From Hydrogenothermaceae bacterium (GTDB lineage Bacteria > Aquificota > Aquificia > Aquificales > Hydrogenothermaceae), in assembly GCA_026418535.1 (NCBI GenBank), contig JAOABC010000001.1, positions 62,001 through 126,000 of the forward strand: 64,000 bases of DNA, in the 5' to 3' direction. Positions 18,360-48,802 of the stretch are shown one piece after another. A model generated the notes under the pieces. The model was not told the DNA's origin. It searched no databases and saw only the letters and a list, made by a program, of their open reading frames with translations. Position 1 is the first letter of the stretch, and every line of letters begins with the position of its first letter. The translations under genes were made by a program, and so were the position numbers.

Positions 18360-20080
18360 AACTCCTTGAACTTGTTTACTATCGGCATTCTTCTGTCTTT
18401 ACCAAAGGCTTTCTCTGTTATCTTTATCCCTATCGGAGCCTGCCTTCTCTTATACTCATTTACATCTATCAGTCTGATGACCTTTTTTACCAAAGACTCT
18501 TCAAAGCCCACCTTTACTATCTCCTCAACTGGGTAATCTTCTTCTATATACATCCTTATAATCTCATCCAGTATAGCATAAGGTGCTAATTCATCCTCAT
18601 CTGTCTGATTTGGCCGAAGCTCTGCAGAAGGTGGTTTAGTCAAAACCCTATCTGGAATAACCTTAGATATACCGTTTCTATATCTACACAATTCGTATAC
18701 TCTTGTTTTCAGTATATCCTTTATGACTGCAAATCCTCCAACCATGTCTCCATAGAGCGTTGAATATCCAACACTCATCTCACTCTTATTCCCTGTAGCT
18801 AAGACTATCCAGCCGAATTTGTTGGATAGAGCCATAAGGATATTTCCTCTTATTCTTGCCTGTAGGTTCTCTTCTGTTGTATCTGGGTTTAATCCGGAGA
18901 AAACTTCTTCTAGGTTTTTCAAGTATAGACTAAAAAGGTCACTTATAGGAATGGTAAAAGTCTCTATACCAAGGTTTTTAGCAAGCTCTAAAGCATCTTC
19001 TATAGATTCTTTTGAAGTGTACTCTGAAGGCATTAGAACACCTTTCACATTCTCAGCACTGAGAGCATCCACAGCTATCGTAGCTACAATTGAGCTGTCT
19101 ACTCCCCCACTCAAACCTATAACTACTCTGCTAAATCCACTTTTCTTTATATAGTCTCTTAGGCCCAACACAAGAGCCTTGTAAACCTGCTGGATTTGGC
19201 TTTCTTCCAGTGATATGTTCTGATGTATTCTCTCCTTTTTTTTTCGTAGAGAGTGGTCTACCATTACTTCCTGAACATTTCTTTTCCTCTGATACTCATA
19301 CCTTAAGTTCTTTAATCTGTTATCTTTCAGCTGGTACCTGAAAATCTCATCTAAATCTAAGTCGGCAACTATAAGTTCCTCTTCAAAAGACGAGCCTTTA
19401 GCTATGAACTCCCCGTTTGGGTTTACTATGAAACTGTTTCCATCAAATACAAGCTCATCCTGACCGCCTACAAGGTTTACATAAGCTATAGCAACTAAGT
19501 TATCTCTAGACCTTACTTTTACCAACTCATGCCTTTTTTCCACCTTTCCAATACTGAAAGGTGATGCGTTTATGTTTACTATTAATTCGCACCCTTCAAC
19601 AGCATACGTGTTTATAGGGTTCTCTGGATACCATATATCTTCACATATAGAAATACCTATCTTGCAGCCATCTATATCAAGGATAGTTAGATTGTTTCCT
19701 CTCTGGAAGTACCTGTTTTCGTCAAATACACCGTAGTTTGGTAAAAAATGCTTGTAATATTTGGCTATGATTCTACCTTTGTGAAAGATAAAGGCGGTGT
19801 TGTACAGATCTTCTTGTCTATCTATAGAACCTAATACAACTATAATATTTTCCACTTGCTTAGATAGCCTATCTATGTACTCTTGGTTCTTCTGGATAAA
19901 ACTAGGTTTTAATAGTAAGTCTTCTAGAGGGTACCCTGTTAGAGCCAACTCCGGAAAAACTACTAGATCAACCTCTAAACTCTTAGCTTTCTCGATAAAC
20001 TCAACAATCTTCTGGTAGTTTCCTACTAAGTCACCTACAACTGGATTGATCTGGGCTAAAGCAACTCTTATCTTCTTCAA
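18356..20080 (-). CDS. nadE: Glutamine-dependent NAD+ synthetase
   Basis: A 574-residue two-domain enzyme. The N-terminal nitrilase domain (about 1-260) supplies ammonia from glutamine: Glu in DLVVFPELALTGYP, Lys in AKYYKHFLPN and Cys in GISICEDIWYP. The C-terminal NAD synthase domain has the ATP pyrophosphatase loop GLSGGVDSSIVAT (about 315-327). It finishes NAD synthesis after NadD. It follows the broken gene at 20.1-20.5 kb by one base. Confidence 0.95.
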   Translation of the reverse strand: MKKIRVALAQINPVVGDLVGNYQKIVEFIEKAKSLEVDLVVFPELALTGYPLEDLLLKPSFIQKNQEYIDRLSKQVENIIVVLGSIDRQEDLYNTAFIFHKGRIIAKYYKHFLPNYGVFDENRYFQRGNNLTILDIDGCKIGISICEDIWYPENPINTYAVEGCELIVNINASPFSIGKVEKRHELVKVRSRDNLVAIAYVNLVGGQDELVFDGNSFIVNPNGEFIAKGSSFEEELIVADLDLDEIFRYQLKDNRLKNLRYEYQRKRNVQEVMVDHSLRKKKERIHQNISLEESQIQQVYKALVLGLRDYIKKSGFSRVVIGLSGGVDSSIVATIAVDALSAENVKGVLMPSEYTSKESIEDALELAKNLGIETFTIPISDLFSLYLKNLEEVFSGLNPDTTEENLQARIRGNILMALSNKFGWIVLATGNKSEMSVGYSTLYGDMVGGFAVIKDILKTRVYELCRYRNGISKVIPDRVLTKPPSAELRPNQTDEDELAPYAILDEIIRMYIEEDYPVEEIVKVGFEESLVKKVIRLIDVNEYKRRQAPIGIKITEKAFGKDRRMPIVNKFKEF

Positions 20081-22517: not shown

Positions 22518-23896
22518 ATGGTCTTAAAGAAAAAAATGTTTTATTTTAGGATAGGTTTCTTCCTTATCCTTCTTCTTAGTGTTATCAGCTACGGACAGAT
22601 AAAGGTAAAACCTGGAGAGGTTAGTGTACTAGAGATAGATTACGATAAAGTGATGGTAACAGGTCAGGAGTACACTTTGAAACTAAGGGCAACAGACAAA
22701 TTTGGAAACCCATCTAATAACTTTCGCTCTGCAGGAAGTCTAAAGCTAAAATCAAACAGTCTAAACATAGACAGAACAACCATATCTCCAAAGGATCTGT
22801 TGGATGGCCAGTTCAGTGTAAAGGTATATCCTTCAAAAGTTGGAGAGTACTCCATAGAGGCATACCTGAACGAAAAACCTATCTACTTTAGGCTAAAAGG
22901 TAAAGATGAAACCACGTCTTCTTTAAAGGTAACTGGTAGGATTGAAAACGTGGTGATCCAATCTCCAGACTATTTTCTCTCTAACTATCCTTACACTGTA
23001 AAACTATCATTCTACGACATAGAAGGTAATGCTGTAGTTGAAAAGTCTCATATAAACCAAGTCCTTACACTAATAGCAGAGAAGTTATCTAAAGCAGTTA
23101 TAGACAATAGCCTTCAAAAAGCTCTCTTTAAAGGTAGTAAAACCGGAGATACAGAGCATAGGTAAATTTGAGATAGAGATAACACAGGAGATAGAGGCAG
23201 GACAACCTTTCAAGTTGAGGATAAAGGCAGTAGATAACTTAGGTAGAGTTATAAAAGTGTACGACAAGATAGGTAAGGATGTAAAACTGACTTACACCGG
23301 AACAGGGCAACTAATACCAAACACCATACCCAGAGAGTACTTTAAGGATGGATTAGCAAAAGTTGAAGTGATCTACACCGAGAGTGAGGTTATCTACATA
23401 GATGCAGCTGTTGTGGACACAAAAGATCTAAAACCAGTCCAAACACAGTTATTCAACACCTGTACTCCACAAGAAAAACCTCAAAAAACCAGAACCTAAG
23501 CCGGAAGTCTTAAAAGAGGAAAAGTCTCAGGAGAAGAAAGAAGATAAAGTACAACTACAGCAGAGAGGAGAACAGGCGGAGGCTCAAAAGCAACAGAAAA
23601 CATCCATAAAGCTCAAGTTTCCTATAGAAGTGGGAAAGCTCTCTAAAGTAGTGGAGATAAACAGAGATAAAACCTCCTTAACTATAAAAGGCGTCTTTGA
23701 AAACAGAAATCCGGAGTATGACATAAATAAGTTTGAAAACGACATACAGATAAACAAGCAGAAAGTAGGAAAGATATCCTTCTATGAAGACCAGGATAAG
23801 AGCATAATTATCTCACTTAAGATGAAAGAAGAAAGTTTTAAGATTACCTATGAATTTGGTCTAAAAAACCAGTTAGAGATAAAGATCTCTAAGTAG
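22518..23896 (+). pseudogene. Secreted protein with repeated Ig-like segments, broken by two frameshifts
   Basis: Three consecutive frames read as one secreted protein of about 460 residues. It has a signal peptide (to about 28), two related segments beginning GQEYTLKLRATDKFG and GQPFKLRIKAVDNLG, a Lys/Glu/Gln-rich linker (about 23490-23600), and a C-terminal beta domain (SIKLKFPIEVGKLSKVV) that faintly resembles AMIN domains. The first shift lies near 23131-23136 (AAAGGTAGTA), the second in an A6 run at 23483-23488. No function is recognised. Either a decayed gene or two sequencing slips. Confidence 0.6.
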
Positions 23897-25222: not shown

Positions 25223-25238
25223 AATGATGGTTATCATT
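25223..25238. promoter_or_regulatory. Fur/Zur-like inverted repeat at the copA end
   Basis: AATGAT and ATCATT flank GGTT, similar to half-sites of Fur-family boxes but with a 4-base rather than 1-base centre. It covers the copA stop and lies about 60 bases before the U32 peptidase start. Confidence 0.25.
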
Positions 25239-27168
25239 TTTCGATGTTCAGCTTTTTGAGCCTCAGACTATTTAAGACTACAGAGATAGAACTTATGGAC
25301 ATAGCAAAAGCTCCGTACATAGGATTTAGGAGTACACCAAAAGCAGGATAGAGAAGTCCTGCAGCGATAGGTATACCGAGTATGTTGTAGAGATAAGCCC
25401 ATAACAGGTTCTGTTTTATCACATTTAGCCCGATCTTCGATAAGTTTATAGATTTTATAACTCCCTTCAAGTCAGAGTTTAGAAGAACTATGTCTCCACT
25501 GTTCTTAGCCAGCTCTGTAGCATTACTGACAGCTATAGATATATCGGATGTGGTCATTGCAACTGAATCGTTTATACCATCTCCCACGTACACAACCCTT
25601 TTGCCTTCTTTCTTCAGATTAAGGATTATTCTATACTTATCAACAGGGTTTAGACCCCAGTAGAAAAAATCTACCCCTATCTTATCTGCCACATCCTTGG
25701 CAACTTTCTCCTCATCTCCAGTTAGGATAGCGGTTTTTACACCTCTCCTTTTGAGCTTTTCGACCACCTCAAAGCTTTCCTTTCTTATCTTATCAGAAAG
25801 AGCAAACATAGCCACTATCTTATGGTTCATCCCTGCAAAGACTACTGTATGTCCCAGTTGGTTGTATTTCTTGAAAAACTCCTCACACTCTTTTTGTATC
25901 TCTACAGACATCTTATCGATCATTTTCCTATTCCCAGCGAATACCACCCTGTCTCCTAATTTGCCTACAACTCCCTCTCCAGGAATCACACTTTTACTAT
26001 CAAAACTCTCAGAACCTTTTACATATGCATACCCGAACCTGTAGATAGATTCTGAAATAGGATGGTTAACATCTTTCTCTAAGGAGAAGACAGTTCCTAA
26101 GAAATCCCTATCTAGTATTAGACTGTCCACAACCTCCATCTTTCCGGTAGTTATGGTCCCGGTTTTATCAAACACTACTAAATCCACATCCTCAGCTGTC
26201 TCTATCACCTCTGGATTCCTAAAGAGGATACCCTCCTTTGCACCCCTACCTACTATGGAAACTATCGCTATAGGTGTAGCTAAGCCAAGGGCACATGGAC
26301 AGGCTATGACCAAAACAGACACCATGCTCACAAACCCATAATCTAAAGAACCCATCAAGAGATACCAAAGGTCAAAAGTCAAAATAGCTATTACCAAAAC
26401 GGTAGGGACAAAGTAGTAAGTTATCCTGTCTGCCAATTTTCCTATCTTAGGCTTCTTACTTTGAGCAGTTAAGAGTAGGTTTATAACTTGGTTTATGGTA
26501 CTCTCTTTAGCATTCTTTAATGCTCTAACCTTGAGCACTCCAAGCTGGTTTAGACTTCCGGATAACACTAAACTCCCCTCTGAAATAAACTCCGGCTTAG
26601 ACTCTCCGGTTATAGAGGATCTATCGATCTCAGAAGAACCTTCCAAAACTAAACCATCTGCTGGAATAACCTCTCCTGGCTTCACTATGAAAACATCTCC
26701 TTTTACTAAACTATCAGCATCCACAGTGTGCTCCTTCCCCTCAACTATAACTGTTGTTTTCTTGGGTTTTAGGGAGATAAGTTCTACCATAAACTGTGTT
26801 GCCTTTAGCTTCGTCTTTGCTTCGATATACCTACCTATCAAGAGGAAGGTTATGACGGAGGCTGACGCTTCAAAGTACAGATGCCTTGCCTCTTCAGGGA
26901 TAACATCCGGGATAAGTAAGACAAGTAAAGAGTAGATATAGGCTGAGAGTGTTCCTATAGACACTAGTAGGTTCATATCCCCTAGTCTGTTTTTCAAGGA
27001 TAAGATAGAGGACCTTAAAAACTCAATACCACCGTAGAATTGAACTACAGAAGCAAGTACAAACTGAAAAAAAGCTCCATATGGTGCAAACATAGACGAA
27101 AACAAGAGGAGGAGAGCAGCCAGAGATAAGGACAGTTTCTTTCTCAGAAATAAAAGCTCATCTAACTT
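25234..27168 (-). CDS. copA: Copper-type P1B ATPase, transport and ATPase part (read after a -1 shift)
   Basis: About 640 residues carrying the full P1B core: TM region, actuator loop SSITGESKPE, metal site ACPCALGLATP, phosphorylation motif VFDKTGTITTGK, NHPISES with the P1B His, TAILTGDEEK and YVGDGINDSVAM. The CPC site suggests Cu+ or Ag+ export. There is no good start of its own: the first usable codon is a TTG at 27105 with no ribosome site, while the open frame continues upstream (KLDELLFLRKKLSLSLAALL) to an A9 run. There it joins the metal-binding domain gene by a single -1 shift. Confidence 0.9.
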   Translation of the reverse strand, partial: KLDELLFLRKKLSLSLAALLLLFSSMFAPYGAFFQFVLASVVQFYGGIEFLRSSILSLKNRLGDMNLLVSIGTLSAYIYSLLVLLIPDVIPEEARHLYFEASASVITFLLIGRYIEAKTKLKATQFMVELISLKPKKTTVIVEGKEHTVDADSLVKGDVFIVKPGEVIPADGLVLEGSSEIDRSSITGESKPEFISEGSLVLSGSLNQLGVLKVRALKNAKESTINQVINLLLTAQSKKPKIGKLADRITYYFVPTVLVIAILTFDLWYLLMGSLDYGFVSMVSVLVIACPCALGLATPIAIVSIVGRGAKEGILFRNPEVIETAEDVDLVVFDKTGTITTGKMEVVDSLILDRDFLGTVFSLEKDVNHPISESIYRFGYAYVKGSESFDSKSVIPGEGVVGKLGDRVVFAGNRKMIDKMSVEIQKECEEFFKKYNQLGHTVVFAGMNHKIVAMFALSDKIRKESFEVVEKLKRRGVKTAILTGDEEKVAKDVADKIGVDFFYWGLNPVDKYRIILNLKKEGKRVVYVGDGINDSVAMTTSDISIAVSNATELAKNSGDIVLLNSDLKGVIKSINLSKIGLNVIKQNLLWAYLYNILGIPIAAGLLYPAFGVLLNPMYGAFAMSISSISVVLNSLRLKKLNIEK

Positions 27169-27177
27169 TTTTTTTCA
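27162..27177 (-). other. A9 slippery run with immediate stop (candidate programmed frameshift site)
   Basis: On the minus strand the codons are GAA AAA AAA AGT TAG. A -1 slip on A-AAA-AAA, or an extra A added by RNA polymerase, leads into AAG TTA GAT GAG and the ATPase. The run is exactly 9 A (27175 to 27167). It could equally be a homopolymer miscount in the assembly. Confidence 0.6.
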
Positions 27178-27512
27178 AGATCCTCTAAACTTAGACTAAC
27201 ATCGTACCCAAGCTCTCTTATCTTGTTTATTATATCCTCTCTCTTTACCTTTAGAGGGTCAAAGGTGAATATACCTTTAGATGTTCCGAAGTTTACAGAG
27301 GCCGTCTTTATACCGTCCATCATCTTTATGGTAGCTTCTATCCCAGCCGCACAACCTGCACAGTGCATTCCGGTTATATTGAACTCTGCTATCTCTGTCT
27401 GGGAATCTTCCCCTGAAAAACTTTCATTCTTCTTCTTACCGCCGAAGAAAAACCAACTTATACCACCTATGAGAGTTACAGAAGACAATAAAACTAAAAT
27501 CTCAGATTTCAT
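27162..27512 (-). CDS. Membrane-anchored heavy-metal-associated (HMA) domain, N-terminal part of copA
   Basis: A 116-residue product with an N-terminal hydrophobic anchor (ILVLLSSVTLIGGISWFFFG), a short charged linker, and one HMA domain of about 65 residues with the copper-binding GMHCAGC motif near 52-58. Read without a frameshift it ends two codons after the A-rich run and would be a membrane-tethered copper-binding domain. With the shift it becomes the metal-binding domain of the ATPase. It has AAGGTGA as ribosome site and follows the UPF0114 gene by 13 bases. Confidence 0.82.
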   Translation of the reverse strand: MKSEILVLLSSVTLIGGISWFFFGGKKKNESFSGEDSQTEIAEFNITGMHCAGCAAGIEATIKMMDGIKTASVNFGTSKGIFTFDPLKVKREDIINKIRELGYDVSLSLEDLEKKS

Positions 27513-27525
27513 CTTTCACCTTCGA

Positions 27526-28068
27526 TCAATGCTCTTTAGCCTTTAAATCATGTTTTCCGTGAGACTTCCCAATGAAGTATATGGCTAAGGAAACTAGTAT
27601 TATACCAGCTGCAAGGTACAATAGGCTAAGTATATCTTCATATTTAAAAGAAACAGCATATTTAAAAAAGGTTACGATCAACACCATAACAATAACTTTA
27701 GCTAACTTTTCCTTAAGCTGGTCAAGGGAGTGGATTATCAGAACTCTGGAAGACTTCGCATCTTCCTCCGCATAGTCTATCTTACTTACAAATAGTTCGT
27801 ATATACCAACACCAAATATGAGAAGAACTGTAGCTATAAGATATGCATCTATAGCACTTATGATATGTATGACTGCCTCCTTGTGGTACTTCTCATAGGT
27901 CTCAATATCTGTAAAAGCGTGAAATAGCTCCATAAAAACAAGAATTATATCGTATGTCCCTATTATAGTAAGAGTTAAAGCAGCGAATATAGAGGCTATT
28001 ACCGCCAAGATAACCATCAACCTACTTTCCCAAAGTAACCTCTCAAAAATCTTCTCCAGTTTAGACAC
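27526..28068 (-). CDS. UPF0114 (YqhA-like) membrane protein
   Basis: A 180-residue protein with four hydrophobic segments, starting KIFERLLWESRLMVILAVIA and containing HIISAIDAYLIATVLLIFG and GIYELFVSKID, typical of UPF0114/YqhA. The molecular function of the family is unsettled. The start is GTG 28068 with AGGAGG upstream. It heads the unit with copA; the C-terminus has a His/Lys-rich tail. Confidence 0.85.
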   Translation of the reverse strand: MSKLEKIFERLLWESRLMVILAVIASIFAALTLTIIGTYDIILVFMELFHAFTDIETYEKYHKEAVIHIISAIDAYLIATVLLIFGVGIYELFVSKIDYAEEDAKSSRVLIIHSLDQLKEKLAKVIVMVLIVTFFKYAVSFKYEDILSLLYLAAGIILVSLAIYFIGKSHGKHDLKAKEH

Positions 28069-47567: not shown

Positions 47568-48175
47568 CTAATTTATTGCTGAAGTTAGAAAGCTTACCCC
47601 TAGGAAGATAAAGGCAAATCCAACTAACTTTATTATGGTAGTGTATACTTTCTCCTTCAAGAATTTCCTTGTTTTTGATATTAAAATAATAATGTAGAGC
47701 TGTGTAACCAGAAAAGCTACAAAGAATGAGATAAAGAAGAGTAGAGTTCTGAAGAACTCCTCTGAGAAGAAGTTTATGGCTATAAAAAACCAAAAACCGT
47801 AAGTGTATGGATTAAATAGATTTACAGTTAAACCCTTAAAGGGGGAATAAAAAATCCTCTTTTTGTGTTTGAGTACTCCATAGTTCTGTATCTGTATCTC
47901 AAATTCTTATACTCAATGTATACGAGTAAAACACCTCCTGCTACGTAGAAGAATTTTGGGATGTTGTCAGTGTAAAATATGCCTCTGTACAGCAGGAGGT
48001 AAGATATCAGGAATATCAGTATATCTGTTATTAAAGGTGATAGGGCAACAGCAAAGCCTTCTTTCTTACCATACTTAAGAGTTTCAGAGACCATGAGAGC
48101 TAAAATAGGTCCTGGAGAGATAGCAGCTCCAACTCCTAAAAATAACGCCTTTACAATGATTTCTATCTCTTCCAT
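47568..48175 (-). pseudogene. LysE/RhtB-family exporter broken by one frameshift
   Basis: The first 115 codons from ATG 48175 give a LysE-type start (LGVGAAISPGPILALMVSET) and end at IPPLRV. In the next frame the protein continues FKGLTVNLFNPYTYGFWFF through two or three more helices to TAG 47568. The shift is at a C5 run (ATTCCCCCTTT on the minus strand, near 47838); one more C would restore a normal protein of about 202 residues. Either a recent loss or a miscounted homopolymer. The ATG overlaps the TGA of the upp remnant. Confidence 0.75.
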
Positions 48176-48802
48176 CAGTCTTCTGTGTTAAAGGCTCTAT
48201 CCCCTGCATCACCTATTCCGGGAATTATGTACCCTCTACTGCTTAGTCCCCTGTCGATCTATCCTACGAAGAACTCTACATCTGGATATTTATCTAACTT
48301 CTTCAATCCCTCCGGAGAGGCTATGATGTGAAGAGACTTTATTTTTCTTGGATTACCTTCCTTTATAGAGTCTATAGCCAGGGATATAGAGCCGGAAGTA
48401 GCCACCATCGGGTCTACTAAGATAATAGTCTTCCTTCAACTTCCGGAGCTCTCCTGTAGTATACCTTACTTTTCAGTGTGTTTTCGTCTCTCTTTATTCC
48501 AAGGAACCAAGACCTGGCCATGGGTAATAACTCTAAACAACTTTCTAACATCGGAAGACCGGCCCTCAAACGGCAACTATAACAAAGTCTTCTTCTTTTA
48601 ATCTCTGGTATACAGTGTTCTCAAGAGATGTCTCTACCCTCTCTAATACTACTTCCTCATGCTTCAGAGCTTCAAGGAGTAGAATCTTTGCTAAGACGGA
48701 TAATGTCTCTCTAAAAAGGTTAGGAGGTGTACTATTATTCCTGAGTTTAAAGATTAAATTCTTCACAACCGGATGTTCCAACTTCTGGATGTTAGACAAC
48801 AA
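48175..48802 (-). pseudogene. upp: Uracil phosphoribosyltransferase remnant
   Basis: The gene can be read from HPVVKNLIFKLRN through FVIVAV, then LRAGLPMLESCLELL, ILVDPMVATSGSIS, SLHIIASPEG and GYIIPGIGDAGDRAF, matching UPRTase end to end, but in three pieces. Lesions are a one-base loss near 48565 (after VAV), another near 48430 (before the PRPP loop), and an in-frame TAG at 48259-48261. Three independent lesions argue for true decay of uracil salvage. The start is TTG near 48802. Confidence 0.85.

Follow-up and report, generated by a model that had tools for sequence, protein, structure and literature searches.

In this Hydrogenothermaceae genome copA, a copper-exporter gene, appears to give two products under the control of slippage at a run of nine adenines, a reading to which we assign, from sequence evidence, a probability of roughly 0.78. 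Within the window (the whole stretch of DNA analysed, 64 000 nucleotides), the gene lies on the minus strand and the run (GAAAAAAAAAG) occupies positions 27167–27175, reading T9 on the plus strand and A9 on the minus strand. An earlier sequence-only reading had proposed that copA is split at this A9, with the metal-binding frame ending GAA AAA AAA AGT TAG, and that a programmed frameshift might yield an HMA protein and a full copper ATPase. The split is confirmed, and programmed slippage is supported by conservation of the site across the family.

The zero frame is an ORF of 116 amino acids with an ATG start (27162–27512, minus strand; Pfam HMA, 60.1 bits). Its 3′ end reads ...CTT GAA AAA AAA AGT TAG, the protein ends ...EKKS and the TAG stop (27162–27164, minus strand) stands right behind AGT. 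In the sequence, a Shine-Dalgarno-like AAGGTGA (27516–27522, minus strand) is found 3 bases before the ATG, and the HMA starts of most relatives are also preceded by SD-like purine stretches. The encoded protein consists of an N-terminal transmembrane anchor (residues 3–23, ILVLLSSVTLIGGISWFFF then GGKKK; 27444–27506, minus strand) and an HMA domain with the metal-binding motif GMHCAGC (Pfam PF00403, residues 44–104; 27201–27383, minus strand). In an AlphaFold2 model of the short product the anchor forms a helix from residue 3 to 23, and the HMA domain has the β-α-β-β-α-β order of a ferredoxin-like fold (block pLDDT about 90). The anchor is hydrophobic in 28 of 28 relatives as well (hydropathy 1.7–2.3), and the suggestion that the short form would be membrane-anchored is supported. 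The lysine-rich flank of a membrane helix lies on the cytosolic side (positive-inside rule); as lysines follow the anchor, the HMA domain is predicted to be cytosolic, where CopA takes up Cu(I).

The ATPase body is encoded in the −1 frame (25234–27174, minus strand; 646 codons stop to stop) and scores 527.5 bits against the TIGR01511 model of copper-translocating P-type ATPases, above the cut-off of 397. Its nearest solved relative is CopA of A. fulgidus (3j08/3j09, E about 1e-131). The first ATPase-frame residue to align with 3j09 is residue 7, opposite 3j09 residue 84, just past the metal-binding domain of that protein; because the alignment starts right behind the HMA domain, joining the frames gives the usual CopA architecture plus an additional helix at the N-terminus. 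The translation carries IACPCALG (the CPC transport motif), DKTGT, and AYLYN (YN) and MSISS (MxxSS) of the last helices, a set of motifs that is associated with Cu(I). By sequence the ATPase is thus a P1B-1 Cu(I) pump (CopA), with transport predicted. The claim that a −1 slip leads into an ATPase with no usable start of its own is borne out: the earliest in-frame starts, TTG and ATG, lie 23 and 27 codons past the run, within the first transmembrane helix (MA; 27088–27135, minus strand), which is lost or truncated from any in-frame start. Upstream of copA is a gene for a UPF0114 (YqhA-like) membrane protein (27526–28068, minus strand; Pfam PF03350, 116.6 bits). The stop codon of this gene precedes the HMA ATG by 13 bases, a comparable upstream ORF is present at orthologous loci L007–L016 and L032, and the two genes probably form one operon.

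Among 112 genomes searched within the order, 28 copA orthologues were found, all belonging to the host family (L006–L033, own genome included). In each of the 28, exactly nine adenines stand between G's, the ATPase occupies the −1 frame, and the zero frame meets TAG or TAA 1–4 codons (2–8 bases) past the run. The ATPase match starts at or near the junction in most of them, and the ATPase-frame residues just past the run vary (KL, KQL, KERI, KLL, KI). With two further A9 junctions found by pattern search, G-A9-G occurs in 30 of the 31 family members with a readable site. These represent about nine genera, with protein identity down to 46%, and include single- and two-contig genomes (G097, G099, G079, G082); the counts ignore shared ancestry, and the independent unit is nearer to about nine genera than to 30 genomes. 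A phylum-wide HMA search identified separate short HMA frames (115–197 aa) in 31 of 31 family orthologues; in the sister family (f2) HMA and ATPase are mostly fused in one frame of about 670–765 aa. The sole exception in length is an A8 (L182, G067:C196) in a 320-contig MAG with 7% contamination, whose close relative G066 has A9. Another genome (G093, 55% complete) keeps the A9 junction, and its ATPase is broken further. Run length and stop in related genomes, which had been named among the checks to make, came out as A9 in 30 of 31 with a nearby zero-frame stop and no A10. The 16-mer GAAAAAAAAAGYTAGA gave 25 matches in 136 genomes of the phylum, one per genome, all at copA and all in the host family; its reversed control matched once among the 136 genomes, and the site is thus more than a chance run. 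A single scan of genome contigs yielded only a Clostridia relative.

The junction is under selection, and almost certainly marks a frame transition that is both conserved and functional. In 30 aligned junctions nothing varies from position −1 to +9 of the run, both flanking G's included, and each of the 28 orthologues uses the junction codons GAA-AAA-AAA-AAG. Codon-invariant columns are rare among the fully conserved degenerate columns (9 of 122), and four of the nine are the junction codons; nearly all other conserved Lys and Glu columns are mixed (AAA/AAG or GAA/GAG), and the median identity at four-fold third positions is 0.42. The third junction lysine is always AAG, the minority codon (AAA 1591 vs AAG 491 in these ORFs), and the run is therefore capped at nine and never becomes A10. 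Elsewhere in the 65 kb of these copA ORFs there is no run of at least nine A's. The position of the stop is by itself modest evidence, because a stop within four codons in the zero phase has a chance of about 40% per site in so AT-rich a gene.

We infer that both proteins are made, and likewise which machine is responsible and what the short form does. Unslipped expression would end just past the metal-binding domain and give the 116-residue anchored protein with its cytosolic Cu(I)-binding HMA domain. In a fraction of events the −1 frame would be restored, through an mRNA that has gained one A or lost two, or through ribosomes slipping by −1 on A_AAA_AAA, and the product would be anchor, HMA, linker and ATPase, a complete P1B-1 pump. 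Transcripts with A10 or A7 bring the ATPase back into frame; those with A8 or A11 terminate within about 5–12 codons. Slippage of RNA polymerase, of the Thermus dnaX type, is probably the main route, with ribosomal slippage possibly contributing. The conserved homopolymer expected for transcriptional slippage, at least about 8–9 A/T at the junction, is present as A9 in 30 of 31 members, and RNA polymerase is favoured because neither a conserved SD-like element nor an RNA structure was found. Upstream of the run, pairing with an SD-like stimulator is weaker than background (−3.7 vs −4.8). Predicted downstream structure is at the level of shuffled sequence (mean z −0.47 and −0.11), and upstream, downstream and spanning folds are all at or below background in a folding test of pseudoknot-free structures. 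The run length would set the ratio of short to long product. The short form probably serves, tethered next to the pump, as a copper donor or buffer; made together with CopA, the HMA protein could load the pump or hold copper nearby. Alternatively, the slip may merely limit pump production.

The same two products could instead arise by −1 ribosomal frameshifting on A_AAA_AAA, with a tandem slip of tRNA-Lys, which we regard as a serious though rather unlikely alternative to RNA polymerase slippage. The heptamer is present in the proper register, in the zero frame within GAA AAA AAA, and tRNA-Lys(UUU) is the only tRNA-Lys found in the genome; a search for a second one (CUU) gave none, the leftover 73-base tRNA being Pro, with individual typing covering all but a few long tRNAs. 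In E. coli, A-run cassettes also give efficient frameshifting, 40% with 9 As and 10% with 7 As (PMC3711429). However, the SD-like element or hairpin that would stimulate ribosomes is not conserved at the copA junction, exactly nine adenines are retained where a ribosome needs seven, and the classical A_AAA_AAG heptamer falls in the other register. It is less likely still that the break is simply tolerated, slippage rescuing full-length CopA and the short product having no role. Rescue of A-run indels by slippage is known in bacteria, and a poly(A)-polymerase-like gene of the same family, in which both A9 and A10 occur, behaves like a tolerated indel. In copA, on the other hand, codon choice holds the run at A9 in both directions, the run has never reverted to A10, and the short frame ends cleanly past an intact, conserved HMA domain.

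A miscounted homopolymer had been put forward as the main alternative. Homopolymers are a classic site of error, and a LysE gene in the window (47568–48187) that three relatives have intact is broken in this genome, but an identical A9 with the same frame relation is found in genomes of 30 species, single- and two-contig ones among them, and the ATPase frame runs from end to end without a stop, under codon-level constraint. We therefore reject an error of sequencing or assembly, and likewise a pseudogene confined to this genome, as most improbable. Phase variation, in which the DNA would switch between A9 and A10 and turn the pump on and off, is very unlikely: A-runs are typical contingency tracts and the poly(A)-polymerase-like gene does show both lengths among relatives, yet a switch should show both states, and at copA we find A9 in 30 genomes, A8 in one and A10 in none. 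About as improbable are two separate proteins, the ATPase being translated from an internal start or by re-initiation. In many relatives the stop is overlapped by a purine-rich GTTAGAGGA that might serve as an SD, but no ATPase-frame start is near. The first candidates lie 14 to 82 codons past the run, their position is not conserved among orthologues, and they mostly remove the first transmembrane helix; the alignment to A. fulgidus CopA, which covers the ATPase frame from its seventh residue on, speaks against them as well. For want of a conserved start codon this possibility was rejected.

Slippage as the source of both copA products has precedents, and the parallels drawn beforehand with E. 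coli copA (PMC9548414, PMC5009743) and Thermus dnaX (PMC5009743) hold in the literature, the former with opposite polarity. In E. coli, copA undergoes programmed −1 ribosomal frameshifting (Meydan et al. 2017, as treated in PMC9548414 and PMC5009743): ribosomes that stay in frame make the full pump, and those that shift make a 70-residue putative copper chaperone. Both genes would yield a small copper-binding protein and a pump, with the shift just past a metal-binding domain. The E. coli arrangement, a full pump in the zero frame and a short form by shifting, is not the one found here, however. Without slippage the short product is made, and the polarity is therefore reversed: the zero frame stops after the HMA domain and its product is short and membrane-anchored. 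The site here is also an A9, and no conserved structure was found. In Thermus thermophilus dnaX, RNA polymerase slips on nine A/T (PMC5009743). Common features are the nine-base A run, near stops in the unproductive frames and no need for ribosomal stimulators (PMC5009743); the gene differs, and dnaX makes its long product without slippage. Among experimentally studied cases the nearest is tssM1 of Citrobacter rodentium, where transcriptional slippage on A11 was shown by RNA analysis and two length variants are required (PMC4256274). It shares a stop after the A-run, the lack of an SD or structure, and short and full-length forms, but the run is A11 rather than A9, the gene is another one, and the case is known from two species only and not from a whole family. 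In the chlD/chelatase group, too, one gene yields a short and a long subunit through a −1 shift that is conserved and lies at an A-run or an AT-rich site (PMC3711429, PMC9227772); that enzyme is a different one, and its shifts are usually reported with downstream RNA structures. No earlier report of this copA break was found in the open literature, subscription papers lying mostly outside that coverage. The main text of GeneTack makes no mention of copper or P-type ATPases.

E. coli and this family of thermophiles would thus have one solution in common: a single gene that, through a frame shift, supplies both the pump and a small copper-binding protein. The two distant lineages appear to have arrived at it with opposite polarity and probably with different machinery. 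The copA break is among the few frame breaks in cellular genes that are conserved over a whole family, and for that reason the rule it suggests, an A9 with no helper structure, lends itself to direct testing. Automated annotation will probably label such genes pseudogenes or two fragments and so miss a complete copper exporter.

Sequence searches of the own genome and of its genus mate (G078) were used for a census of A9 runs. The own genome has 21 distinct runs of at least nine A's in 1.47 Mb and the genus mate 16, and the two share only two orthologous A9 sites, copA and the poly(A)-polymerase-like gene. The latter, a poly(A)-polymerase/CCA-type nucleotidyltransferase (G000:C22:251411–252828; L047, L161, relatives L162–L198), has an A9/−1 break between a core ORF of about 300–340 aa and a tail ORF of about 180–250 aa. 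The break with both halves was seen in 26 genomes. The gene is a single frame with A10 in four (G099, G066, G087, G071) and a single frame without any run in G074–G076; in G104 it consists of two same-frame ORFs (TAA-ATG). We raise tentatively, at somewhat less than even odds, the idea that RNA-polymerase slippage on A9 may be a standing device of the whole family for making pairs of short and long proteins, with run length under selection, in copA and the nucleotidyltransferase at least. If so, the pairs would be a core and a tail-extended enzyme, and a tethered copper-binding protein and a pump. dnaX was ruled out as a further slippage gene, being one uninterrupted frame with no slippage break in the host family.

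It had also been noted that other genes in the window show similar breaks. This is partly right. The one case compared with relatives is the LysE-type translocator (47568–48187, minus strand), which is split between two frames near TTTTTTATTCCCCC. The gene is unbroken in G078, G079 and G082, so the break is private or an error; since copA is conserved and LysE is not, conserved and private breaks can be told apart. Elsewhere in the window, three consecutive ORFs of 215, 131 and 154 aa with shifting frames (22518–23896, plus strand) resemble one secreted protein broken twice, at junctions with no long homopolymer. In-frame A9 runs lie inside unbroken NadE-like and IleS genes (window 19236–19244, minus strand; also L052), where A9 slippage must therefore be tolerable. 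A glycosyltransferase (G000:C25:29675, L053) is broken at an A9 in a +1 relation, into 275 and 135 aa, and is not on the A9 list of the genus mate. The genus mate itself holds a possible further case (L206, G078:C3:302234), an A9 in −1 relation between ORFs of 156 and 201 aa.
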